Source: Chloroflexota bacterium | GTDB taxonomy: Bacteria; Chloroflexota; UBA4733 | Direction of reading: 5' to 3' | DNA length: 9,102 nucleotides | NCBI GenBank assembly: GCA_025449435.1 | Contig: JANWJO010000205.1 | Span: forward strand, 1-9,102 | Translations under genes and position numbers: made by a program | The notes under the pieces: model-generated | Databases searched by the model: none | The model's input: only the letters and a program-made list of their open reading frames with translations | Told to the model about the DNA's origin: nothing | Part shown: piece by piece, positions 1 to 9,102 of the stretch | Position numbering within the stretch: position 1 is the stretch's first letter | How the letters are laid out: each line of letters opens with the position of its first letter

Positions 1-354
1 GCGCGCAAGATCGAAACGGTCGCTGAATTGCCAAACCTCGTCACTCAGATGCACTTGACTGAACAGTGCGAGATATTCGGAGTTTGTGTGGCACTTGACC
101 GCGCGCAGCCGGGCCAGCAGCGCTTCGAGTTCGGCGCATTTGTCGACGTAGGCGTCGGCGAGGGCGAGCACGGCGGGGTCACCATCCTGCAGTTCGAGTT
201 GCCACGGGCATTGGGCGGTGCAATAGGCGCGCATCCCTGCCCTGGTCAGCGTCCTGTAGGCTGGCGCACCGCAGTTTGGGCAGTCCCTCGGCATGCTGGT
301 GTTGCCATACCGCGCCCTGATCGCTGCGAGCGTCGCGGCATCAATGGCTGTCAT
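1..354 (-). CDS. Small zinc-ribbon protein, C-terminus cut by the window edge
   Basis: An open frame of 118 codons starts at ATG 354-352 and runs off the left edge without a stop, so the C-terminus is missing. Residues 25-51 form a likely zinc-binding site: CPNC (C25, C28) followed by YCTAQC (C45, C49), spaced C-x2-C-x16-C-x3-C. After it comes a Leu/Ala-rich, probably helical stretch (about 57-85). The start overlaps the stop of the upstream gene by 4 nt (ATGA), which implies translational coupling. The segment DPAVLALADAY (about residues 59-69) and a later QVHLS match DPPALALAERY and HVHLS in the upstream 183-aa protein, so the two may be diverged duplicates. No family is recognised. A nucleic-acid-binding role is an inference from the zinc ribbon only. 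Confidence 0.8.
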   Translation of the reverse strand, partial: MTAIDAATLAAIRARYGNTSMPRDCPNCGAPAYRTLTRAGMRAYCTAQCPWQLELQDGDPAVLALADAYVDKCAELEALLARLRAVKCHTNSEYLALFSQVHLSDEVWQFSDRFDLAR

Positions 355-902
355 GCGCTGCGTCCTTCCATCTGGTGCTCGATGCCGCCCAGCTCTTCGA
401 GCAGCGCGCAGTACCGTTGCAACTGGCGATCAAGTTCGGCCTCGCGTTGGTCGTAGGTGGGTGTGCCGGAGAGATGCACGTGCGCGGTGAGCCACGCGTG
501 TTCGGTGTCTATCCAGTCCCCGCCCTTGATGAGGCGCGCCTTGAGTGCCGCGTAGCGCTCAGCAAGTGCCAGCGCTGGCGGATCGGGGAGGGTCGTCACT
601 ACGCCATCGACGCGTAGTGCACCGGAGCGAGTGACTTGCACGCCGGAGCGTTCGAGACGTTGGAGGAGCGAGTCAACCATTGGAAGCCATCCTTTCAGGA
701 GCGTGACTGGGGCCAGCACGTCATGGCCACGCGGGCATGTGCGGTCGGTGGTGGTGGTGTGCCAGCGCTGGCAACGCGGACACCACATGCTGTGCGTCCA
801 TTCCGGCTCCCGGCCAGCACCGAGATGGACGCGCTTGACCTCGAAACGTGGCTTGGCGGGGTCGGGGAGCACATCGGCAATCCGTTGCATGTGCGTTGTC
901 AC
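351..902 (-). CDS. Hypothetical zinc-ribbon protein (183 aa)
   Basis: The function is not recognised. Residues 41-60 hold CPRC (C41, C44), then H48, C56 and H60 in CPRGH, a probable C2CH zinc site. The second half is helical, with charged, Leu-rich segments (about 104-125 and 150-175) that may form a coiled coil. The start is GTG at 902-900. In-frame reading further upstream meets a stop at 929-927, and the only other nearby start is ATG four codons downstream (890). No strong Shine-Dalgarno sequence is seen, only a weak GGCGG. It is the first gene after the 334-bp palindromic gap, so its promoter may lie in that element. It overlaps the next gene by ATGA. The zinc site followed by a DPPALALAERY-like segment resembles the next protein, suggesting a tandem duplication. 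Confidence 0.8.
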   Translation of the reverse strand: MTTHMQRIADVLPDPAKPRFEVKRVHLGAGREPEWTHSMWCPRCQRWHTTTTDRTCPRGHDVLAPVTLLKGWLPMVDSLLQRLERSGVQVTRSGALRVDGVVTTLPDPPALALAERYAALKARLIKGGDWIDTEHAWLTAHVHLSGTPTYDQREAELDRQLQRYCALLEELGGIEHQMEGRSA

Positions 903-993
903 GATGCGCCGCCAAGCACCGGGGACTTATCGCGCACATTAAAACGCACTTGCAGCGCAGCCCTACAAGGGCCACTACCAGAGGAAATACCTA

Positions 994-1021
994 CTTGGAG
1001 CGCAATAACGCATAAAACGCA
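994..1021 (+). repeat. Left inner arm of the palindrome (28 bp)
   Basis: It begins CTTGGAGCGCAATAACGC and is the reverse complement of 1137-1164 except at two positions (1006 and 1015). The 115-bp spacer between the arms is AT-rich. Confidence 0.9.
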
Positions 1022-1136
1022 GTTATGAACATAGAACGCTCTACCCTTTACTCTTTGCTTGTTTACTCTCGCGTACATGTGTGAAAGAGTATTATGTAAA
1101 TAAGCAATAGTCATAGAGGCGTTGAAAGAATCTCTT

Positions 1137-1164
1137 TGCGTTCTATGCGTTTTTGCGCTCCAAG
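1137..1164 (-). repeat. Right inner arm of the palindrome (28 bp)
   Basis: It ends TTGCGCTCCAAG on the plus strand and pairs with 994-1021 at 26 of 28 positions. Transcription through the gap in the direction of the genes would give an RNA in which these arms could form a long stem. Confidence 0.9.
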
Positions 1165-1236
1165 TCCGGCTACCAGAGGGAAAGCTTCCCACCGCCCTGC
1201 GTTGTAAGGTGCGTTCTAAGTGCGCGATAAGTCTGC

Positions 1237-3432
1237 TCAGCACAGAAACCACCGTTCGGTAGGCGGCCCGCTCTTCGCCTGCGTCCGCTCCATGCGGGCA
1301 ATGCCCCGCTCCGCCAGCCGGTCGAGCGCGCTTTGGAGGTCCTTGGTAGTGATGTGTCGCTGAAAGACATCGCGCAGTTCTGTTCTCCTCAGGCCAGTCG
1401 CACCAGCCACGCTCAACGCGACGCGTATCTTCTCTTCGGTTGGGTCGCCCTCAGCGCTTGCGCCGAAGATCACGCCTGCACTCTGCTGGCAGTAGTCCCA
1501 TAGGGCATAGGCTGCGAGCATGTGTTCCTGGCGCACCACAATGGACAGGTCCAGCAGCGCATAGATGCACGCCAGGCGCAGGACGTGCGGCTCACTGCGC
1601 GCCGTCACTGCCCCCACCAATCCTGGCTGGCTGGCCGTCAACTCGTGATAGAGCTTCGGCCAGCTTGCCGTCCGCACCTCTTCATCGTGGATGATCAAGC
1701 GCTCAGTTGTGCCGAACGTGATAGCCTCGTACAGGCGGCGCGCCAAGGGTGATAGCGCGGCATCGGTCAGCGCGCCGCCGTAGGGCAGTTCCTTCGACCG
1801 CCGTACGCAGACCCACAAAAAGCGGTTGGCAAAGCCGTTGGCACCTTCGAGCATCGTGAGATCGCGGCGCAACTCTTCTTGCGTGATGTGGCCAATGATG
1901 CTGATATGCGCGTTGGTCGCCATCGCTGGGAAGTTCTTGGTCATGATGCTCAGGACGTTATTGCCGTCCCACGCCTTGCGGATGACCGGCGACAGCGTGT
2001 TGCCGTCGCGCGAGAGCACCCGTAGCGTGCTTGAGAGTTCGCTTTCCTCAATCAGCAGGCGCTTATCATGGACGCCCTCATCGGTGACCGTGCGTTGATA
2101 GGTCACGCTCTTGGTTTTGCTATCCTTGATCGGCTTGGTTTCTTCGATGGGGTCCCGTACGTTCCAGATCAACCCCTCACCGCTCGATAGACCGTCCTTG
2201 CGCCGGTCATGTATCCAGCGATCACCACCGAACAGCGCTGCCAGCTCGAATAGGTGGGTGACGTGGCGGGCGCTGGTGCCCTTGCGCGCTTTGGCCGTCT
2301 CGCCCACGATGCCGCAAAACTCGTTAAGGCCGTGGCGTGTCTGTTCGACCATCAAGTGAGGGCCACGTCCCACCACATTGCCAAACGCCACGAGGAATTG
2401 CGCTAGGATGGCAACCGAATCGGCTTCGGTGTGCGGGTCAACGGTGCGTACAAAGTCCCCAGCCAGGCCGTGTAGCGCCAGCGGGCTCAGCGTGTCCGGC
2501 CAGGGGGGCGGTGCATCTGACTCGTCTGCTGGTGCCTGATTCCCACCACGCGGGGGGAAGTGAATCACCGGGTCATAGCGCCGGGCGAGTTCCCGCGCCG
2601 CCGCCTGCATGTCGCCGCCGTACTCAAGTAGTGCAAAAGCGGCAAACTTGGTGTAACTCCGGCCCGGCTCGAAGGGCGCAGCAGCAGATGACCATACCCA
2701 CAGGTTCCCGCGTGGCGTGGTATTGGCGGAACGGGCGCGCGGATCGCCCTTGCCGGGTCGTATCCAGACTTCTGTATCGCCTCGTTGCTCGCCACGTTCC
2801 CATAGGTGCGGCTCCAGGATGGCAGTCCAGGTCGTCTCACGGTTGAACCGGTCACCAGGCCGTTCGCCGTCACCTGCTGCTGGTTCCGGCTCTTCATCTT
2901 CCCCATGTGCCGGCGGTTCCGGCAGGTCGTTGGGGTCAAACGCCGCGCCGTCGTGCTTGCGTACATCACCCGTACTGCCCATCGGGCAGGCCGGCAGGTA
3001 GTACATGCGACTCGGTTCCCCAACGCCATCGTCAGCGTTTGGTGCAAGTAGTTGCCGTGCGCCTTCCCACGCGAGCGCCCATTCCGCCGGCGCGATGCGT
3101 TGCGTCATTGGCAGCACCACCCGCCAACGTGGCTGCTGTGCGGTATGCCGCCAGGTCGTGTGTGCCACGTAGGCATAGGGTGCTAAGAGCTGCCAGTCCG
3201 GCGCGCCGTGGTCAAAATCGAACACCAGCGCCGTCAACGCATGCACATTCCTGTCTGCGCGGTGTGCCTGCGCGTACTCTGTTGGCGACCAGAGCGGCCC
3301 GTCTTTGTCCTCACGCTGCTGATGCGTGCTCAGCAGGCCGGCTAGCTGCGCCCAGGTGAGTGTGACGATCTTTGGGTTGGCGTCCTCTTGATCGTTGAAA
3401 CGCGCAATGGTGATGCCGTCTGCTGTCACCAC
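1237..3432 (-). CDS. Primase-helicase: AEP-like primase plus DUF3987-like ATPase
   Basis: This is the largest gene, 731 aa, probably the replicative primase-helicase that primes and opens DNA. The N-terminal part looks like an archaeo-eukaryotic-type primase: FDFD (D72, D74) as the metal-binding motif, HTTWRHT (91-97), PRWRVVLP (101-108), and SRMYYLPACP (141-150) as a late conserved motif. An acidic/proline linker covers about 169-195. The second half resembles the DUF3987 ATPase family: Walker A variant GETAKARKGTS (377-387), Walker B-like RLLIEESEL (458-466), SIIGHI (511-516) and NGFANRFLW (532-540) with a likely arginine finger R537. Residues about 664-731 look like a winged helix. The start is GTG 3432; GTG 3429 is equally possible and sits 8 nt from a GAGGGG Shine-Dalgarno at 3443-3438. 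The stop lies 4 nt from the palindrome. Confidence 0.85.
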   Translation of the reverse strand: MVTADGITIARFNDQEDANPKIVTLTWAQLAGLLSTHQQREDKDGPLWSPTEYAQAHRADRNVHALTALVFDFDHGAPDWQLLAPYAYVAHTTWRHTAQQPRWRVVLPMTQRIAPAEWALAWEGARQLLAPNADDGVGEPSRMYYLPACPMGSTGDVRKHDGAAFDPNDLPEPPAHGEDEEPEPAAGDGERPGDRFNRETTWTAILEPHLWERGEQRGDTEVWIRPGKGDPRARSANTTPRGNLWVWSSAAAPFEPGRSYTKFAAFALLEYGGDMQAAARELARRYDPVIHFPPRGGNQAPADESDAPPPWPDTLSPLALHGLAGDFVRTVDPHTEADSVAILAQFLVAFGNVVGRGPHLMVEQTRHGLNEFCGIVGETAKARKGTSARHVTHLFELAALFGGDRWIHDRRKDGLSSGEGLIWNVRDPIEETKPIKDSKTKSVTYQRTVTDEGVHDKRLLIEESELSSTLRVLSRDGNTLSPVIRKAWDGNNVLSIMTKNFPAMATNAHISIIGHITQEELRRDLTMLEGANGFANRFLWVCVRRSKELPYGGALTDAALSPLARRLYEAITFGTTERLIIHDEEVRTASWPKLYHELTASQPGLVGAVTARSEPHVLRLACIYALLDLSIVVRQEHMLAAYALWDYCQQSAGVIFGASAEGDPTEEKIRVALSVAGATGLRRTELRDVFQRHITTKDLQSALDRLAERGIARMERTQAKSGPPTERWFLC

Positions 3433-3470
3433 GCGTGCCCCTCATGTCCGCGCGAGTCCGTCCCGAGCAT

Positions 3471-3938
3471 TTAGCGCACCCCCTTGCGGAGCTGATCGAA
3501 AGCGGCATTGATCGCTTGCATACGGCGCGTTGCCGCTGCGCGTTCGCCCTCCGGCTTCATATCCGGATGCTCCAGCTTTGCCAGGCACTTCCAGGCCGCC
3601 TCGACCAGTGATGGCGGCGCTGTGGGTAATAGGTGCAAAATGGCGTGCGGCCCGGTAGGCGGTCCGTAACGCGGCGGCGGAGGAGGAGGAGGAGGCGGCG
3701 AAACTGGCTCGCTTTCATCAGTGACGTTCACCGGATCGAAGTACCGGCGTAGAATGGCAATGCCTTCCGCCGCGTAGACGCGGCTGATCGTCCAGCACTT
3801 CTCTTCGGCGTCCCAGGATCGATGAACGGCGGGTATCTCTTCTTTCAGTGCAGCTACGGCCAGTGGGTGATACCGAAACGAGAGCAGCACACTGCCCGTC
3901 ATGAGCACCACCACTTTGGCCCCAGCAAACACCGGCAC
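3471..3938 (-). CDS. HARP-like / DnaJ-type J-domain protein
   Basis: This 155-aa protein has two modules. Residues about 20-67 (FRYHPLAVAALKEEIP to RRYF, with W42 and W49) resemble the short HARP-like domain found in SMARCAL1-type proteins. After a linker with nine consecutive prolines (81-89), residues about 98-151 resemble a J domain: LVEAAWKCLAKLEHPD, with the diagnostic HPD at 124-126, then RMQAINAAFDQLR. J domains stimulate the ATPase of DnaK/Hsp70, so the protein may recruit host DnaK to phage DNA; this is an inference. Start GTG 3938 is preferred because GAGGGGGAGG lies just upstream, whereas the internal ATG at 3902 has no ribosome site. It sits 38 bp upstream of the primase-helicase gene and 21 bp downstream of the preceding gene, so they are very likely co-transcribed. 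Confidence 0.75.
   Translation of the reverse strand: MPVFAGAKVVVLMTGSVLLSFRYHPLAVAALKEEIPAVHRSWDAEEKCWTISRVYAAEGIAILRRYFDPVNVTDESEPVSPPPPPPPPPRYGPPTGPHAILHLLPTAPPSLVEAAWKCLAKLEHPDMKPEGERAAATRRMQAINAAFDQLRKGVR
3671..3700 (+). repeat. GGN triplet repeat encoding the polyproline linker
   Basis: The tract reads GCGGCGGCGG then AGG repeats then CGGCG on the plus strand and encodes the nine-proline run of the J-domain protein on the minus strand. Its closely spaced GG pairs make a two-layer G-quadruplex conceivable on the template strand. Its length may vary by slippage without breaking the frame. Confidence 0.7.
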
Positions 3939-3959
3939 GCCGCCTCCCCCTCTTTCGCC

Positions 3960-4370
3960 CTAGAACGGCTCTTCGCCGGTACCCATCGGCAGCACGTCAC
4001 CAATGCGGTTGCGCTCGAAGTTCTGATCGTCCGTTTCCAGGGTGACCGTGAGCTTGCACGGCTTGCCGATCAGCGCTTCCAGGTCAATGACTTCCCCGGT
4101 AGCGAGCTTGCGTCCGAGCAGCGCGCTCACCCAGCGGTTGGCCTTGGCCTTGGGGCCAAAGCGCGGCGAGCTGGAGCCCGACACCTCAACGGTCTTTTTT
4201 TTGCCGACGATGGCAAACGTCCAAAACAGGTAACTCGTGCTGCCGTTGTCGTACTGGCTCGGCTGGGTGCTTTCGCGTTCCTCAACGCTCTTGAGCGTGG
4301 CGTCATACACGCCAGCAGGAATGATCGGCTGCGCTTCGTAGGGTGCTGGTACGGTAAACGTGAGTGGCAT
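3960..4370 (-). CDS. DUF669-like protein, possible ssDNA-binding/replication accessory
   Basis: The product is 136 aa and begins MPLTFTVPAPYEAQPIIPAGVYDATL. The layout is a beta-rich first half (IPAGVYDATLKSVEE, then SYLFWTFAIVG), a Gly/Ser loop with FGPKAKANRW (about 71-80), and LEALIGKPCKLTVTLE followed by the tail DVLPMGTGEEPF. This pattern is that of phage proteins of the DUF669 type and relatives, which lie beside replication and recombination genes and are suspected OB-fold DNA-binding proteins. The assignment rests on pattern memory, not a catalytic motif. Start ATG 4370 is preceded by AGGAAG about 13 nt upstream, a rather distant ribosome site. It is the first gene after the 109-bp gap with a possible terminator and promoter, and heads the cluster with the J-domain and primase-helicase genes. 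Confidence 0.7.
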   Translation of the reverse strand: MPLTFTVPAPYEAQPIIPAGVYDATLKSVEERESTQPSQYDNGSTSYLFWTFAIVGKKKTVEVSGSSSPRFGPKAKANRWVSALLGRKLATGEVIDLEALIGKPCKLTVTLETDDQNFERNRIGDVLPMGTGEEPF

Positions 4371-4413
4371 TGCTGTTCTTTTTCTTCCTGTGTGGTTGGG
4401 GGCAACATCCCCC

Positions 4414-4442
4414 TATCGCGGTACCGCCGCGTCGGGTGTCAA
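4414..4442 (-). promoter_or_regulatory. Candidate promoter before the replication gene cluster
   Basis: A perfect TTGACA lies at 4442-4437 on the minus strand, directly after the possible terminator and upstream of ATG 4370. About 17-19 nt further is GCGATAGG (4419-4412), a poor match to a -10 box. The -35 match alone could be chance. Confidence 0.25.
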
Positions 4443-4450
4443 ACAACCGG

Positions 4451-4465
4451 CCGCGCCTTGCGCGG
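4451..4465 (-). terminator. Possible intrinsic terminator hairpin
   Basis: On the minus strand CCGCGC-AAG-GCGCGG makes a perfect 6-bp GC stem with a 3-nt loop, 14 nt after the stop of the nuclease-like gene. It is followed by CCGGTTGTTTG, which is only moderately T-rich, so termination may be weak or partial. Confidence 0.35.
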
Positions 4466-4479
4466 TGTGGGCGCTGCCA

Positions 4480-4860
4480 TCACCACTCCAGGTCCGTCAG
4501 GGAGCCATCGCGTTCAATGCGCCAGGTCTGCCAGGTCCCAGTAGGTGTGAGCCAGGCCAGCAGGCACAGCGTGTTAGCGGGTCGTGGCCACGCTAGGTAG
4601 CGCGTCAACCAGGCGTGGTCGAGATGCGGCTTGGTCGCTGTGGCCTTGACCTGGGCGCAGATCAGTTGGTGCTCGGTGATGCCGAGCACGTCGAATCCCC
4701 ATATGTCTTTATTGAATCGTGCGCTGGCGTTGCCGCCGTAGCGCCAGAGGGCAGCGGTGGGGAACACGCGCGTGAGTTCGCGCATAAACGCTTCCTCAGC
4801 GGCTGCGCCGGTGCGCTGGTTGTAGCGGGCTTGCAAGGAGCGCGGGAGGGCGGTCGCCAT
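4480..4860 (-). CDS. PD-(D/E)XK-like nuclease candidate (126 aa)
   Basis: The protein begins with a basic, helical region carrying GAAAEEAF (18-25), then ALWRYGGNASARFNKDIWGFDVLGI and LICAQVK. The order E22/E23, D52 or D57, then Q70-V-K72 fits the restriction-endonuclease-like fold (E, D, then (E/Q)-x-K), as in Holliday-junction-resolvase-like and Mrr-like nucleases, where Q-x-K is tolerated. A C-terminal beta-rich part ends TDLEW. If correct, it cuts or resolves DNA branches during replication or recombination. The start ATG 4860 overlaps the stop of the upstream gene by one base, so it is translationally coupled. The length (126 aa) suits a small resolvase-type enzyme. It could instead be an inactive DNA-binding relative, since the acidic residue before the lysine is a glutamine. 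Confidence 0.65.
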   Translation of the reverse strand: MATALPRSLQARYNQRTGAAAEEAFMRELTRVFPTAALWRYGGNASARFNKDIWGFDVLGITEHQLICAQVKATATKPHLDHAWLTRYLAWPRPANTLCLLAWLTPTGTWQTWRIERDGSLTDLEW

Positions 4861-5072
4861 TACATGGCCGCCGGTGGATACGGCTCGCTGGTGTCAGATC
4901 GCATTAGAACCTGCAACCGGTGAATGGTGTCCCGGCACGTGTCGAGCAAGGTGTATTGCTCAAGGGTGAGCGGCCCATCCCTCAGCAGGATGTTGACGGC
5001 GCGTTCGATGTCCCCAAGAAGTTCGTATGAACGGCGTTTCCGGTCGAACGCCGTGCTGGTGTACGTCCTCAC
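4860..5072 (-). CDS. Small hypothetical protein (70 aa)
   Basis: No family is recognised. The 70-aa product has a basic N-terminus (RKRR at 11-14) and two probable amphipathic helices, about 15-31 and 36-58, and ends in EPYPPAAM. It has no cysteine pair, signal peptide or membrane segment. It is accepted as a gene because the GTG start (5072) overlaps the preceding stop by 4 nt (GTGA), a good AGGAG ribosome site lies 5 nt upstream, and the stop overlaps the next ATG by one base. It is embedded between a zinc-finger protein and the nuclease-like protein, so it probably serves the same DNA-related process. Confidence 0.65.
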   Translation of the reverse strand: MRTYTSTAFDRKRRSYELLGDIERAVNILLRDGPLTLEQYTLLDTCRDTIHRLQVLMRSDTSEPYPPAAM

Positions 5073-5644
5073 GCCATCTCCTCTCGATACCCGCGCCTCA
5101 ATGCGGCATCCCGTAGCCGGATAAACGTCGCCTCAGCAGGCGCGATGGCGTCAAACTGGTAGCTGCGTTCCAAGTTCCCCGGCGCGATGCCGTGCTGCAC
5201 CACGAGCTGCACTTCCCCCAGCAGGTTGGGCAGCAGGCGCAAGATGTAGACCCGTAGCTCGCTCTGCGTCTCACGCACCAGATGCACGTGGTAGCTCGGC
5301 AGCACGCGGGGGGTGGCGAGAGCTGCTACGCGTTGTGCCGTCCCCTCTCTGAACGCGCGTTCAACGGCCACACCAGCCTGGCGGCGGCAACGGTCACTGC
5401 AATAGCTCACGCGCCGCGACAGGTGGTAGTAGTTCGCCTCGCACCACCGGCATTGCTCCACCGGCAGGAACGTGTCGATAAAGGCGGCAAGCTCGCTACT
5501 CTGCCAGCCGTGGGCCTTGACGATGCGCTCAATGGGCCGCCAGTAGCCACACTCCACGAGCCAGTCGAGTTTGCGCGCCATCGGTAGCCGGTCGTTGGCC
5601 GGGTCCACACGCAAGGCGGGGAGGGGGATGCGCTCAGCGACCAT
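5069..5644 (-). CDS. Zinc-finger protein of unknown function (191 aa)
   Basis: The protein is not recognised. Residues 65-86 form a probable C4 zinc finger: CRWC (C65, C68) and YCSDRC (C82, C86), reminiscent of FCS/MYM-like fingers, which bind nucleic acid or protein. The N-terminal 60 residues look helical (LDWLVECGYWRPIERIVKAHGW), and a basic Arg-rich helix follows the finger. Residues about 115-160 (YHVHLVRETQSELRVYILRLLPNLLGEVQLVVQHG) look like a mixed alpha/beta domain. Start ATG 5644 is chosen over TTG 5647 because it makes a TGATG overlap with the methyltransferase stop and has GAGG 7 nt upstream. Its place directly after the methyltransferase suggests a linked role, but nothing specific can be claimed. 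Confidence 0.75.
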   Translation of the reverse strand: MVAERIPLPALRVDPANDRLPMARKLDWLVECGYWRPIERIVKAHGWQSSELAAFIDTFLPVEQCRWCEANYYHLSRRVSYCSDRCRRQAGVAVERAFREGTAQRVAALATPRVLPSYHVHLVRETQSELRVYILRLLPNLLGEVQLVVQHGIAPGNLERSYQFDAIAPAEATFIRLRDAALRRGYREEMA

Positions 5645-6618
5645 CAAGCACCCTCGTCTATCAATGCGGGTTGTCGTGTGCGCTGGTTGCCCAACGCCTC
5701 AAGGTTGCGCAGTGCCTGGCGGAAGTAGCTGAGTTTGAGTTCAACGCCAACGCCACGGCGCCCAGCCTGCACTGCCGCGTATACCTCAGATCCCACGCCC
5801 ATAAATGGCGTCAACACGGTCTCGCCTGGGTTGCTCCACAGCGCTAGGCAGCGCTCGATGACATCCAGTTGCAGCGGGTGGACGTGCTTTTCGTCCTCCT
5901 CATCGCGCGCTTCCTGGAATGGCAGCACCCGATCAAGCCGCACATCGTCCCAGAAGGCCGATGCATACTGCCGCCATATCCAGTGGGAGTACCGGTTTTC
6001 GATCTGGCTTCCGGTCCAGCCGCGATAGCGCAGCACGTCGTTAGGTGGCTTGCGTTCGCCAGCGTATTCCGTCAGGCCAGTCGGGTGCGCGATCGGTACT
6101 GGATTGTTGCCGCGCTTGCGGAACACCAGCAGATAGTCCGCACTGGCTACCGAGCACTGCGCCGAGTCGTCAACGATGGTGCGATGGGCGAGCCCCTTGG
6201 TGAGTGTGCGATTGCGTACGGTGAGCGGCTCTTTCCACACGTGATAGCGCGCCACGTAGCCGAAGCCGCAGCGGTTGTGCAGTCGGATGATGTCGCCGGG
6301 GAAGTCGGCGAGTTCGTCGCCGTGGCCGGTGTGCGATGATGGCACATCCATACAATGCACCGCCGTCATCCGGCCCGGCATCGTCACACGGTGCAACTCG
6401 CGCACCACAAACTCGTAGTGCGCCAGAAACTCCTCGTAGTTGCGACTATTGCTCAGGTCGCGGTCGCTACTGGAGTACTGGTACAAGCCCGCAAAGGGCG
6501 GCGAGTACACGGAGAGATGCACCGCATCATTGGGCAGCGCTGCAATCACGTCGATACAGTCGCCGTGATAGATCGCGTATTCGTTGGTAATGACTTGCTC
6601 AGCCGTTGCTATAGCCAT
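5644..6618 (-). CDS. Beta-class site-specific DNA methyltransferase
   Basis: This 324-aa protein transfers a methyl group from S-adenosylmethionine to adenine N6 or cytosine N4 in DNA. The motif order is that of the beta class: YHGDCIDVIAALP (17-29), catalytic motif IV SPPF (39-42), then C-terminal HPLQLDVIERCLALWSNPGE and SAM-binding motif I as PFMGVGS (271-277), followed by AGRRGVGVEL. The usual VLDPF is VLTPF here, as I recall for phage members of this family. SPPF is more common in N4-cytosine enzymes, but the base cannot be decided. The specificity region is short, as in stand-alone phage methylases, and no cognate restriction enzyme is obvious. Start ATG 6618 has GGAG 8 nt upstream and overlaps the helicase stop by 10 nt. 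It may protect phage DNA from host restriction. Confidence 0.92.
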   Translation of the reverse strand: MAIATAEQVITNEYAIYHGDCIDVIAALPNDAVHLSVYSPPFAGLYQYSSSDRDLSNSRNYEEFLAHYEFVVRELHRVTMPGRMTAVHCMDVPSSHTGHGDELADFPGDIIRLHNRCGFGYVARYHVWKEPLTVRNRTLTKGLAHRTIVDDSAQCSVASADYLLVFRKRGNNPVPIAHPTGLTEYAGERKPPNDVLRYRGWTGSQIENRYSHWIWRQYASAFWDDVRLDRVLPFQEARDEEDEKHVHPLQLDVIERCLALWSNPGETVLTPFMGVGSEVYAAVQAGRRGVGVELKLSYFRQALRNLEALGNQRTRQPALIDEGA

Positions 6619-8012
6619 GAAGGCATCTCCACTCGTTGCGTTTTGTGGTCATCGCGTGCCACGTTCAGCGCCTCACGCATATGCAGCACCAGAGCATCAA
6701 ACATATGGGCCGCCTGCTCGGCCTTGCGGTGTAGATTGCGCAGGGCGCTTTCACCGCCTGGCGTGGTAACGAGGTCCACCGAAACAGCCGACTGCTGGCC
6801 AAACCGCCAGCACCGGCGTACCGCCTGGTAATACTGCTCGAAGCTGTGCGAGGGGAAGTAGGTCAGATGGTGGCAGTGCCGCCAGTTCAGTCCCCAGCCC
6901 GCGATTAATGGCTTTGTGACCAGAACACGGACCTGGCCAGCGCCAAAGGCTGTCAGCTTTTCCTCTTTGGCTTCGACACTTTCCGACCCACTCACCTGCA
7001 CAGCGCCAGGGATAAGTTCGGTCAACAGGTCGCCCTCACGGTTGAGGTGACACCAGGCGATAGCGCGTTCGCTGTGGCCAAGGAGCGACGCGGCGACCTC
7101 GCAGCGCTCCGTGAGCGTGCGCCGCAGTTCCTCGCGTTCCTCGTGCAAGCCCAACGCGGGCACATCGAACAGACGGCCAGGAGTTACCTGGGCCGCCTCC
7201 ACAACGTTCTGTTGATGGGTCAGCGGTGGCAAGCAAAAACCATCATCGGCGAACCCTAGATCCGACGGCTTGCGCAGGGCGCGCGCCCACGATGCCACCC
7301 AACGCCAGAATGGAGTTTCGGCGTGCCCCTTGAACCGCCATTCCGTTGACTGGCCAAAGAACCGCCCGTGCTGTGCCGTTGCGCCCTGTCGGTTCGTGAA
7401 AAACCGCCCCAGCATGTCGGTGTGTCCGAGGTAGCCCAGCGCCTCACTGGAGGTCCCGAGTTCCACATAGTCATTGGGAGCGGCCGTCGCTGTACAGAGC
7501 AGCCGGTAGCGATGGGTGCGCAGGAACTCGGTCACCAGTGCGCGACGTGCGCCGTCGAACGCCTTGATGGCGCTCGATTCATCACACACCACGCCGCCGT
7601 AGTCGTGCGTGTCGAATAGGTGTAGCCGGTCATAGTTGGTAATCGTGATACCGGCAGTCACACGGCCTGTTTTGGATACTGCGGCATCGATGCCGAACTT
7701 TTCCGCCTCGTGCTGCGTCTGAAACGAGACGGCCAGCGGCGTGACAATAAGCACCGGCTTTCCGGTGACACGCCGGACATTTTCCGCCCATACGAGCTGT
7801 TGCGGCGTTTTGCCCAGCCCGCAGTCCTCAAACAAGGCCGCGCGCCCTTGCCGGATGGCCCACTCCACGAGCGAACGCTGGAAGGGGAACAGGAAATCGG
7901 GCAGCCAAACAGGTGCCACACCCGATGCTTCATTCCATTGCCGTTTCTGGTCGAGGAACGCGGCGTACGGGTCTATGCGCGTTGGTGCAGATGGCGACGC
8001 TATGGCGACCAT
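6609..8012 (-). CDS. SNF2-like superfamily 2 DNA helicase/translocase
   Basis: The 467-aa ATPase carries the SF2 motifs in order (numbering from GTG 8015, one higher than from the chosen start): Q-motif-like FPFQ (43-46), Walker A DCGLGKT (64-70), Ia-like VTPLAVSFQ (91-99), DEAH-type box as DESS (145-148), motif III TAT (175-177), motif V VTKPLIAGWGLNW (366-378), and motif VI QAVRRCWRFGQ (397-407). RCWRFGQ is typical of SNF2/RapA-like translocases. No extra nuclease or DNA-binding domain is visible, and the size is that of compact phage versions. ATG 8012 is preferred over GTG 8015: it forms TGATG with the preceding stop and has GGGGAGG 5 nt upstream. Pairing with a beta-class methyltransferase is common in phages. 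It may remodel DNA for replication, recombination or modification. Confidence 0.9.
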   Translation of the reverse strand: MVAIASPSAPTRIDPYAAFLDQKRQWNEASGVAPVWLPDFLFPFQRSLVEWAIRQGRAALFEDCGLGKTPQQLVWAENVRRVTGKPVLIVTPLAVSFQTQHEAEKFGIDAAVSKTGRVTAGITITNYDRLHLFDTHDYGGVVCDESSAIKAFDGARRALVTEFLRTHRYRLLCTATAAPNDYVELGTSSEALGYLGHTDMLGRFFTNRQGATAQHGRFFGQSTEWRFKGHAETPFWRWVASWARALRKPSDLGFADDGFCLPPLTHQQNVVEAAQVTPGRLFDVPALGLHEEREELRRTLTERCEVAASLLGHSERAIAWCHLNREGDLLTELIPGAVQVSGSESVEAKEEKLTAFGAGQVRVLVTKPLIAGWGLNWRHCHHLTYFPSHSFEQYYQAVRRCWRFGQQSAVSVDLVTTPGGESALRNLHRKAEQAAHMFDALVLHMREALNVARDDHKTQRVEMPSWL

Positions 8013-8233
8013 CACAGCCTCCCCGCCAGATGCGCGCGCACACCCTCAAACGCCAGGTACAGCACAAACGCCGCGATGATGGCCACCGCCGTCAGCGTCT
8101 CGTGATGGCGTGCCCACGTCCACTTCAGTGGCGTCCACCAGGACGCACGCCGCCGCAGTGGCAGCAAGCGCAACCGTGGGCGGGTCACTGGGTGCCCGTA
8201 TTCGTCATAGGTCAGGTATTCGGGTGCGTTCAT
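8012..8233 (-). CDS. Small single-pass membrane protein (73 aa)
   Basis: The product has a very basic N-terminal half (eight Arg or Lys between residues 18 and 42, including RRR at 27-29), then one hydrophobic segment, LTAVAIIAAFVLYLAFEGV (about 47-65), and a short tail. The positive charge predicts the N-terminus inside the cell. ATG 8233 is preferred over GTG 8305 because it gives a 4-nt ATGA overlap with the upstream gene and has GGGGGA 4 nt before it. It follows an exported protein and might work with it at the membrane. A holin-like role is possible from size and topology, but one transmembrane segment is weak evidence and no family is recognised. Confidence 0.65.
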   Translation of the reverse strand: MNAPEYLTYDEYGHPVTRPRLRLLPLRRRASWWTPLKWTWARHHETLTAVAIIAAFVLYLAFEGVRAHLAGRL

Positions 8234-8625
8234 CGTGTCCCCCAACCGAAACGGAGCACGCTTATACGAACGAAGCGCCTGCCCCACAAAATTGACCAAC
8301 TGCACGACGGCGACCAGATATCCACATCGGCAATGCCTGGCCTGCCCCTGTCGTCGATCAAGACGACGCCATGCGTGGCGACATCAACGAGTGAGCCCAA
8401 TGGCAGCCAGTAATCGCCACCGGCTGAGCCGGGAGCGGTGTAGCGACCTGAAGCGGTAATCCCGTGGTCACAGTAGCTAGACACGTTGCCGATCTTGGTA
8501 TAGAGCGGCCGGTTGATGGCCACCAAAGCGGGCGGCGCTACTGGCGGTGTTGGCGCCGGGAACGACCACGGCGGTTGCAGCCCCGCCACCACCATGCAGG
8601 CGACAATGAGGCGGTGAGGGGTCAT
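8230..8625 (-). CDS. Exported RlpA-like double-psi beta-barrel protein
   Basis: The 131-aa protein starts with MTPHRLIVACMVVAGL, a short signal-peptide-like stretch, then a Pro/Ala-rich spacer (21-34). Residues about 44-126 resemble an RlpA/3D-type double-psi beta barrel: GITASGRY (55-62), WLPLGSLVDV (73-82), VLIDDRGRPGIADVDIW (88-104) with the D-R-G and D-x-D pattern, and a closing LWGRRFVRISVLRFGW. Such domains bind or cleave peptidoglycan in RlpA and in some phage and germination proteins. Here the catalytic residues cannot be checked and two cysteines (C52, C108) could form a disulfide. Start ATG 8625 overlaps the upstream stop by ATGA. It may help cell lysis or wall penetration. IVAC at 7-10 looks like a lipobox, but the n-region is very short. 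Confidence 0.7.
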   Translation of the reverse strand: MTPHRLIVACMVVAGLQPPWSFPAPTPPVAPPALVAINRPLYTKIGNVSSYCDHGITASGRYTAPGSAGGDYWLPLGSLVDVATHGVVLIDDRGRPGIADVDIWSPSCSWSILWGRRFVRISVLRFGWGTR

Positions 8626-8969
8626 GAGGACGCCCCTTCCGCCTTCAGCGCCGCCATGGCACGGTCGAACACATCGAGCACGCGCCGCTTGCTCCGGCTT
8701 TCATCATTGAAGGCCACGATATCCACGTCTTCTGGGCAAAAGTGCTCAAGAAAGGTCAACGTGTCGTTTAGGGACTCCGGAGGCAGCACTTCCTCATAGT
8801 TGGCGATGCTGACTTCCACTGCGCCGGATGCACACCAGCGACAGGCGCGCGGGTCAAGGGGGTCTATTTCCCGCCCGCCGACCTCTCGTGCGGATACGCC
8901 GCGCGTCCAACCGAGTTCAATGCGGGTACGTGCTCCCTCGATGATGGCGAGGCGGGTTGCTGTGGTCAT
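8622..8969 (-). CDS. DUF6197-like protein (115 aa)
   Basis: The sequence pattern matches my memory of DUF6197: an N-terminal helix, IELGWTRG (17-24), CRWCASGA (43-50), a middle helical part, then VDIVAFND (82-89) and RRVLDVFDRAMAAL (94-107). That family is found in actinobacteria, phages and other accessory DNA, and has no known function. The CxxC (C43, C46) has no obvious partner pair. Start ATG 8969 is preceded by AGGAAGGGG 7 nt upstream, a strong ribosome site, and overlaps the previous stop by 4 nt. The stop overlaps the next ATG in the same way. Function cannot be stated. Confidence 0.7.
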   Translation of the reverse strand: MTTATRLAIIEGARTRIELGWTRGVSAREVGGREIDPLDPRACRWCASGAVEVSIANYEEVLPPESLNDTLTFLEHFCPEDVDIVAFNDESRSKRRVLDVFDRAMAALKAEGASS

Positions 8970-9102
8970 CCGTTTGCCCCTTCCTCAGTGCCTGGCAGTC
9001 GTGCCTGCTTGGTGCCTGTGGCTTTCGCCGGCTTGTTTTGGTGGGGGCACCGCGTCCAGTCCATTGCGCGGACTTCTTCGACGGTGTGGCGTGAGATGGT
9101 CA
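8966..9102 (-). CDS. 3' end of a gene cut by the right window edge
   Basis: A frame without stops enters from the right edge and ends at TGA 8968-8966, giving 44 C-terminal residues: TISRHTVEEVRAMDW, then TRCPHQNKPAKATGTKQ and ARLPGTEEGANG. The tail is basic and Lys/Pro/Thr-rich. The stop overlaps the start of the DUF6197-like gene (ATGA), which supports real coding. The start lies outside the window; an internal ATG at 9064 could give a 31-residue protein but is less likely. The product is not recognised. Confidence 0.6.
   Translation of the reverse strand, partial: TISRHTVEEVRAMDWTRCPHQNKPAKATGTKQARLPGTEEGANG

Follow-up and report, generated by a model that had tools for sequence, protein, structure and literature searches.

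For uncultured phages and mobile elements the replication origin is seldom known, and a stretch of 9,102 bases from a Chloroflexota bacterium (assembly GCA_025449435.1, contig JANWJO010000205.1, positions 1 to 9,102; hereafter the window, meaning the whole stretch) raises the question of what is served by a long palindrome, at 924–1233, in the gap (903–1236) between an orphan open reading frame (ORF; 351–902, − strand) and the gene of a primase-helicase (1237–3432, − strand). On sequence comparisons, we consider it quite probable that the palindrome serves as the origin from which a phage or related mobile element replicates, and that the palindrome's repeated units, or iterons, are read by the C-terminal winged helix of the neighboring protein, which joins a primase-polymerase (prim-pol) domain to an MCM-like helicase. 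An origin was also the reading favored by an earlier inspection of the sequence by itself (the original prediction), and it is supported here by iteron arrays that lie in the same place beside the same gene in relatives, and further by an iteron base that changes along with a residue in the primase's own DNA-binding domain.

The palindrome and its repeated units

The symmetric palindrome that had been described at 924–1233 is real: aligned to its own reverse complement it scored 97, against a maximum of 39 and a mean of 24.1 in 500 dinucleotide shuffles, and the 12 top-scoring 310-bp segments across the 9102 bases, taken in 5-bp steps, all begin within 901–956. As single-stranded DNA, 900–1240 folds to −80.6 kcal/mol, compared with −44.2 ± 3.9 in 100 shuffles (z = −9.45). 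Its arms are 924–960 with 1197–1233 and 993–1021 with 1137–1165. The palindrome starts 3 bp past the 3′ end of the primase-helicase gene, and GC content is 0.49 in 901–1200 and 0.62–0.65 on both sides.

Six TARAACGC-type motifs had been placed within it at mirrored spacings of 73 and 19 bp; the spacings are correct on both arms, and five of the motifs are exact copies, the only five in the whole window (0.28 expected), while the sixth (1119–1126) is degenerate. The repeat may act on the strand opposite to that of this motif. There the motif corresponds to GCG[TC][TG], a pattern written after the units had been seen, of which each arm holds seven units where 2.35 would be expected per 155 bp of one strand. 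Right-arm units are all on the + strand and left-arm units all on the − strand, with zero on the other strand of either arm, and their distances from the centre at 1079 (40, 59, 68, 76, 120, 132 and 143 on the right; 40, 59, 68, 76, 121, 132 and 144 on the left) mirror each other to within 1 bp. Read outward, T precedes 12 of the 14 units and G follows 11. The earlier account is corrected in two points: the mirrored units number seven per arm, and the sign of selection is the inverted arrays and not the inverted duplication as such. The units are arranged as follows.

924–1233, no strand: palindromic iteron region, proposed replication origin (self-alignment, fold and unit count)
927–958, − strand: left outer array, read outward as GCGCTGCAA (950–958), GCGTTTTAA (939–947) and GCGCGATAA (927–935), at spacings of 11 and 12
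995–1020, − strand: left inner array, read outward as GCGTTTTAT (1012–1020), GCGTTATTG (1003–1011) and GCGCTCCAA (995–1003), at spacings of 9 and 8; read inward as GCGCAATAA (1000, +), ACGCATAAA (1008, +) and ACGCAGTTA (1017, +)
1031–1039, − strand: left innermost single unit, outward GCGTTCTAT
1040–1118, no strand: centre, without GCG[TC][TG] units, within the AT-richer stretch
1119–1127, + strand: right innermost single unit, outward GCGTTGAAA
1138–1163, + strand: right inner array, read outward as GCGTTCTAT (1138), GCGTTTTTG (1147) and GCGCTCCAA (1155), at spacings of 9 and 8; read inward as GCGCAAAAA (1150, −), ACGCATAGA (1142, −) and ACGCAAAGA (1133, −)
1199–1230, + strand: right outer array, read outward as GCGTTGTAA (1199), GCGTTCTAA (1211) and GCGCGATAA (1222), at spacings of 12 and 11

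The arms also share a CTACCAGAGG-type segment at 960–987 and 1155–1182 (75% over 28 nt), which is a direct and not an inverted repeat. Three terminator-like hairpins occur on the − strand in 850–1300 against 0.6 expected (945–969 and 1249–1262), two of them overlapping the left outer array.

Conserved ends on a palindrome of some 310 bp are also what a miniature inverted-repeat transposable element (MITE) or another insertion with inverted ends would leave, an alternative that the original prediction had named and that now stands without support. We regard it as extremely improbable: the exact end pattern has no copy in viral contigs and none was found by blastn in phages or plasmids (bacterial genomes were not scanned), the flanks of 924 and 1233 share by eye no direct repeat that would mark a target duplication, and the arrays of relatives described below vary in sequence yet keep their place and match their own primase. 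The gap DNA had no blastn match in phages and plasmids at E 10, and Rfam gave no family.

Arrays beside related primase-helicase genes

Relatives of the primase-helicase were found with an alignment of eleven sequences including that of the window, which gave 35 viral loci and the best 80 of 290 genome loci. In several of these loci the best palindrome falls just past the primase stop; among 108 loci including the window it was located at the stop in 16, and a palindrome there was among the best six in 45, a rank that has no computed expectation and served as a lead only. These palindromes occur because tandem arrays lie there. When periods of 5–15 were scored from −60 to +400 of the primase stop (at least 14 of 18 matches, with the expectation taken from the rest of the same loci), 67 of 112 loci had period-9 arrays where 4.1 were expected, the window being among the 112 and not among the 67. 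The other ten periods were present in 0 to 5 of the 112, those slightly raised being 11 (5, with 0.8 expected) and 8 (4, with 0.4 expected).

The array unit in relatives is RCGNNNWAA, three in tandem and mostly as inverted pairs. The array is preceded by T in 80% of 56 A-type arrays and 83% of 78 G-type arrays, and G follows 73% and 86% of them, respectively. Under a stricter unit rule, a triplet was found in the 830 bp around the stop in 76 of 114 relatives, and anywhere in the other 1.51 Mb in 14 of 114. The genome records that bear arrays include Nitrospinota, Planctomycetota, Nitrospira, Acidobacteria, Elusimicrobia, Dehalococcoidia, Myxococcales, Spartobacteria, Armatimonadetes, Bacillota, Proteobacteria and one archaeon, a list that is not exhaustive and in which host names are uncertain, most records being metagenome bins. 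Among cultured bearers, Bradyrhizobium sp. BTAi1 contains an array-bearing element (L067). The isolated, DUF3987-bearing Thermobifida phage P318 has no array at its stop.

Some loci depart from the common layout. Rule-fitting arrays lie upstream of the stop used (−178 to −1669) in L018, L028 and L069, which means that an origin need not lie exactly 3′ of the gene, and L045 and L053 have a second triplet of opposite orientation about 560–600 bp past the stop, far from the first. By eye, in the gaps of L001, L012 and L014, whose iterons differ, GTCATCA occurs near a G run close to the gap centre, and L016 and L017 have the G run; the two together are possibly a second conserved origin element.

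Covariation of the primase-helicase with its iterons

The protein features on which this comparison depends are the following, in the numbering of the window's protein.

1237–3432, − strand: prim-pol / DUF3987 (MCM-like) helicase / C-terminal winged-helix protein, 731 aa
1243–1443, − strand: coding region of the C-terminal winged helix (residues 664–730, AlphaFold2), the proposed iteron reader
1354–1356, − strand: codon of His693, the residue that covaries with iteron base 1 in relatives
1372–1374, − strand: codon of Arg687, the residue with the best covariation with iteron base 5 in relatives

Arrays were called from DNA alone in 79 of 115 sequences (the window is included, without a call), and 72 loci were counted after L001, L054, L063, L070, L071, L099 and L104 were dropped for weak or odd arrays, along with L109, which had no call. 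The first base of the unit tracks residue 693 in these loci: all 28 arrays beginning with A accompany Asn, and the 44 beginning with G accompany His in 43 and Arg in 1. The normalised mutual information between the two is 0.905, whereas the next best of 363 variable columns reaches 0.117; the unweighted value is 0.91, and the maximum in any column over 200 label shuffles was 0.141. The seven dropped loci with an array call also follow the rule.

A later test took 48 further loci under the same DNA rule with no array-quality cut, excluding loci of contigs already in the set and also L126 and L128–L134, in which only the N-terminal part matched. Arrays were present in 20, two of which were duplicates (L170 of L040 and L191 of L058), and all 18 distinct loci, found after the rule was seen and including one with a weak array (L167), follow it at no more than 61% protein identity to any counted locus. 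Given that base 1 tracks residue 693 and that all 18 later loci comply, it is very probable that the repeats next to the gene are read by the winged helix of the primase-helicase it encodes.

Common descent cannot account for this match, since closely related proteins differ in it: the helicases of L083 (His, G) and L106 (Asn, A), for example, are 79% identical. The nearest neighbor by whole-protein identity gives the correct base in only 53 of 72 loci. A single FastTree of the helicase domain alone (346 columns) was built from the 72 loci, 17 later loci (without L167, L170 and L191) and the window, which was labelled G. Its 89 relatives, the window excluded, comprise 31 with Asn and A, 57 with His and G, and 1 with Arg and G, with zero exceptions. 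By parsimony, base and residue each change 21 times and always jointly, a count that is close to the shuffled-label mean of 25.7 (least 19 in 500) and whose exact value depends on the tree.

Base 5 is matched best by column 687 (0.356 in the weighted count and 0.368 in the shuffle test, against a shuffle maximum of 0.175). Among the 89 relatives, the units of the 17 later ones having been summarised by hand, 36 have Arg, accompanied by C in 22 cases and by G in 12, and 28 have Ser, accompanied by A in 27; L202 is the lone Arg687-type relative with T. For base 4, no column exceeded chance (0.161, against shuffles of up to 0.186). Five relatives with Ser, Arg or Thr at 693 (L020, L021, L034, L101 and L115) have no array call, and their sites would extend the code.

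The predicted initiator and its neighbors

By sequence and fold, the initiator is predicted to be a replicative helicase. The N-terminal part of the protein matches phage primases, and its family profile matches the prim-pol domain of pRN1 ORF904 (3m1m, E 2.4e-7); the DUF3987 domain match has an E value of 4.4e-5, below Pfam's cut-off. In Foldseek, all 50 matches listed for the whole AlphaFold2 model were chains of MCM, CMG, OCCM or replisome complexes, taken as MCM subunits from the chain labels, with a best E value of 4e-8 and a TM score by query of 0.25–0.30. The whole model has a mean predicted local distance difference test (pLDDT) score of 79 with a poor N-terminal part, and the winged-helix domain alone has a mean of 86, with helices at 664–679, 683–689 and 696–708 and strands at 712–717 and 725–730.

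Searched by sequence against the PDB, the winged helix had two matches, both non-significant (E 0.67 and 1.2). Among the solved structures closest to it, many are transcription regulators, and the gap precedes the next gene, since the ORFs with family matches are all on the − strand; both points would suit arrays that are operators, to which the primase binds through its winged helix to regulate the downstream gene or its own operon. We consider this unlikely, as the arrays lie 3′ of the primase, with the first triplet in 35 of 72 loci starting before its coding region ends, a scan for promoters of the sigma-70 type only found none in 850–1300, and the reader is fused to a primase-helicase.

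The window's primase is the sole member of its 90% cluster (one sequence, one contig), and a single-protein scan of viral contigs gave no close relative of it. Its nearest relative, P0002, is 56% identical and lies on a contig of 53 kb. The orphan ORF beyond the gap (351–902, − strand, 183 aa) has no relative except itself in a large protein set, and the gene upstream of the primase-helicase (3471–3938, − strand) has a weak DnaJ-domain match below the Pfam cut-off.

Fit of the window to its relatives

Residue His693 predicts G at base 1 of the window's own units, and read outward 14 of 14 units begin with G, in a reading direction chosen after the rule was known; read inward, G comes first in only 5 of 14. 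The outward reading also gains support from the flanking T and G and from the AA with which each of the six outer units ends, and a profile built from G-type relatives found 34 matches scoring at least 6 in the window, 8 of them in 915–1235, where 1.2 would be expected. An initial inward reading of the units as ACGCA was set back, as the covariation rule needed G, a post hoc choice on which the profile of the relatives is not decisive.

Several observations weigh against an origin of the kind proposed, both in the window and in the family. At the window's stop there is no 9-bp array, the sole nearby triplet call being 451 bp on and outside the palindrome, and the spacings of its units (9/8, 12/11 and 19) are unlike the 9-bp triplets of relatives. 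The top profile scores in the palindrome belong to the inward units GCGCAAAAA (1150, −; 13.6) and GCGCAATAA (1000, +; 12.9), while the two outward end units score 11.1 each and the outward GCGTT units listed only 4.6–5.8, so that the direction of reading is ambiguous. Base 5 of the outward units is T in 12 of 14 and G in 2, whereas relatives with Arg687 have C or G in 34 of 36, and the base-5 rule suits neither direction. In the model, residues 687 and 693 sit in helix 2 and in the turn before helix 3, outside the middle of the usual recognition helix. The protein scan of viral contigs and the DNA searches of phages and plasmids gave no relative close enough for a comparison of gap DNA. Outside the 72 counted loci stand 42 of the 114 relatives, 37 of which have His or Asn at 693. 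Finally, the switch in GC skew that the original prediction had offered as a check did not appear, with no sign change in the 24 array-bearing relatives (of 72) whose flanks were long enough. Since the window has no strict triplets, an off-trend fifth base and profile scores that point both ways, we treat it, on its sequence, as a diverged variant of the array class.

Array geometry and proposed initiation

Among the 72 loci, triplets form convergent pairs in 41, divergent pairs in 13 and a single triplet in 18. The gaps between convergent triplets cluster at 6–9, 17–19, 27–29 and 38–40 bp, with two at 202 and 229, and their best period is 10.5 bp (resultant 0.898 over the 39 gaps below 60 bp; no probability is given, the loci being related). 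Two complexes touching on the same face of the helix would yield such 10.5-bp phasing. L012 and L017 carry 9-bp arrays together with units 11–12 bp apart, as the window likewise combines 8/9 and 11/12.

The strong hairpin potential of 900–1240, and the requirement of pRN1 for an intact stem-loop, stated in the excerpts of PMC4234260, would also fit an origin of the sort proposed for pRN1, recognised mainly by the shape of its DNA (a stem-loop or cruciform), in which case the repeats would simply be a by-product of that structure. This appears very unlikely to us, because 18 of 72 relatives have a single triplet only, and because the sequence, beyond its symmetry, covaries with the protein. For an origin whose units are read by the primase-helicase, the course of initiation that we infer is that the C-terminal winged helix would bind the repeated units, oppositely oriented arrays would recruit two helicase rings facing opposite ways, the loaded rings would melt the AT-richer centre and then prime synthesis, and replication would begin at the palindrome.

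Comparison with known initiators

Judged from these comparisons, the region appears best explained as a self-recognised replication origin, as in SaPI Rep, P4 alpha and archaeal pRN1. The alpha protein of phage P4 acts as primase and helicase and also recognises the origin, with iterons at ori and crr. It is named as a comparison in the excerpts of PMC4234260, where its primase is of the TOPRIM type, whereas the protein considered here has a prim-pol.

In SaPI Rep and SCCmec Cch2, according to the excerpts of PMC7581432, the C-terminal domain of a helicase reads short iterons directly 3′ of its own gene, and the present locus resembles them in having a predicted helicase with a C-terminal DNA-binding domain and units directly 3′ of the gene. 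As far as those excerpts go, the helicases of SaPI Rep and Cch2 belong to other families (DUF927 or D5/Primase_Cterm), the iterons of Cch2 are of 5 nt, and no residue-to-base code was found (PMC7581432); here, unlike in those systems, a prim-pol is fused to the helicase, the relatives have 9-bp triplets, and the elements belong to many bacterial groups.

According to the same excerpts of PMC4234260, replication of pRN1 requires a stem-loop that lies 3′ of its prim-pol gene and is functional when moved. The likeness extends to a related prim-pol (ORF904, 3m1m), a C-terminal winged helix and an inverted repeat 3′ of the gene. In those excerpts the helicase is assigned to superfamily 3 (SF3) and the origin is without iterons (PMC4234260); the 50 Foldseek matches listed for the window's model were MCM-type complexes. 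The units of pRN1 do not fit RCGNNNWAA. Its stem (L224, 5084–5183) holds GTCCA twice at 9-bp spacing, with period 9 (7/16) the best of the periods tried, and the stem of pHEN7 (L225) holds GTCACCACT-GTCACAACT, with 8/9 matches at 9-bp spacing. In pRN2 (L227), period 9 gives 8/14, no better than period 5 (10/18), and pDL10 (5/11) and pSSVx (5/17) are weak or negative at period 9. A 9-bp spacing in two of five members of the pRN family is thus a lead without a control.

The same helicase family as here occurs in DUF3987 primase-helicases of mobile elements, described as predicted helicases in the excerpts of PMC5862659, and in the prim protein of PICMI. According to the excerpts of PMC10803314, the search model for the PICMI primase includes DUF3987, and deletion of prim leads to fewer circularised copies; neither set of excerpts describes an origin or iterons (PMC5862659, PMC10803314).

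Significance for DUF3987 primase elements

The portions of the open-access literature that were covered describe neither 9-bp iterons nor a residue-to-base code in DUF3987 primase-helicases. We tentatively propose, with somewhat less than an even chance of being right, that the arrays represent a widespread and undescribed class of origin, in which prim-pol/MCM-like helicases read their own 9-bp iterons through a residue-to-base code that has undergone about 20 joint switches, helically phased opposed arrays load paired rings, and the 9-bp rule may reach archaeal pRN plasmids. The code so proposed pairs Asn with A and His with G at base 1, and Arg with C or G and Ser with A at base 5. Were the 9-bp rule to reach the archaeal pRN plasmids, origin specificity could therefore be readable from protein sequence alone.

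If this proposal is true, the origins of very many DUF3987 primase elements would become locatable and their specificity predictable from one or two residues, the coevolution of initiator and origin could be measured over a large number of natural switches, and natural pairs would allow tests of how helicase rings assemble at inverted iterons. The C-terminal domain of a family described, in the excerpts noted above, as a predicted helicase would then have a concrete role, the reading of the origin.
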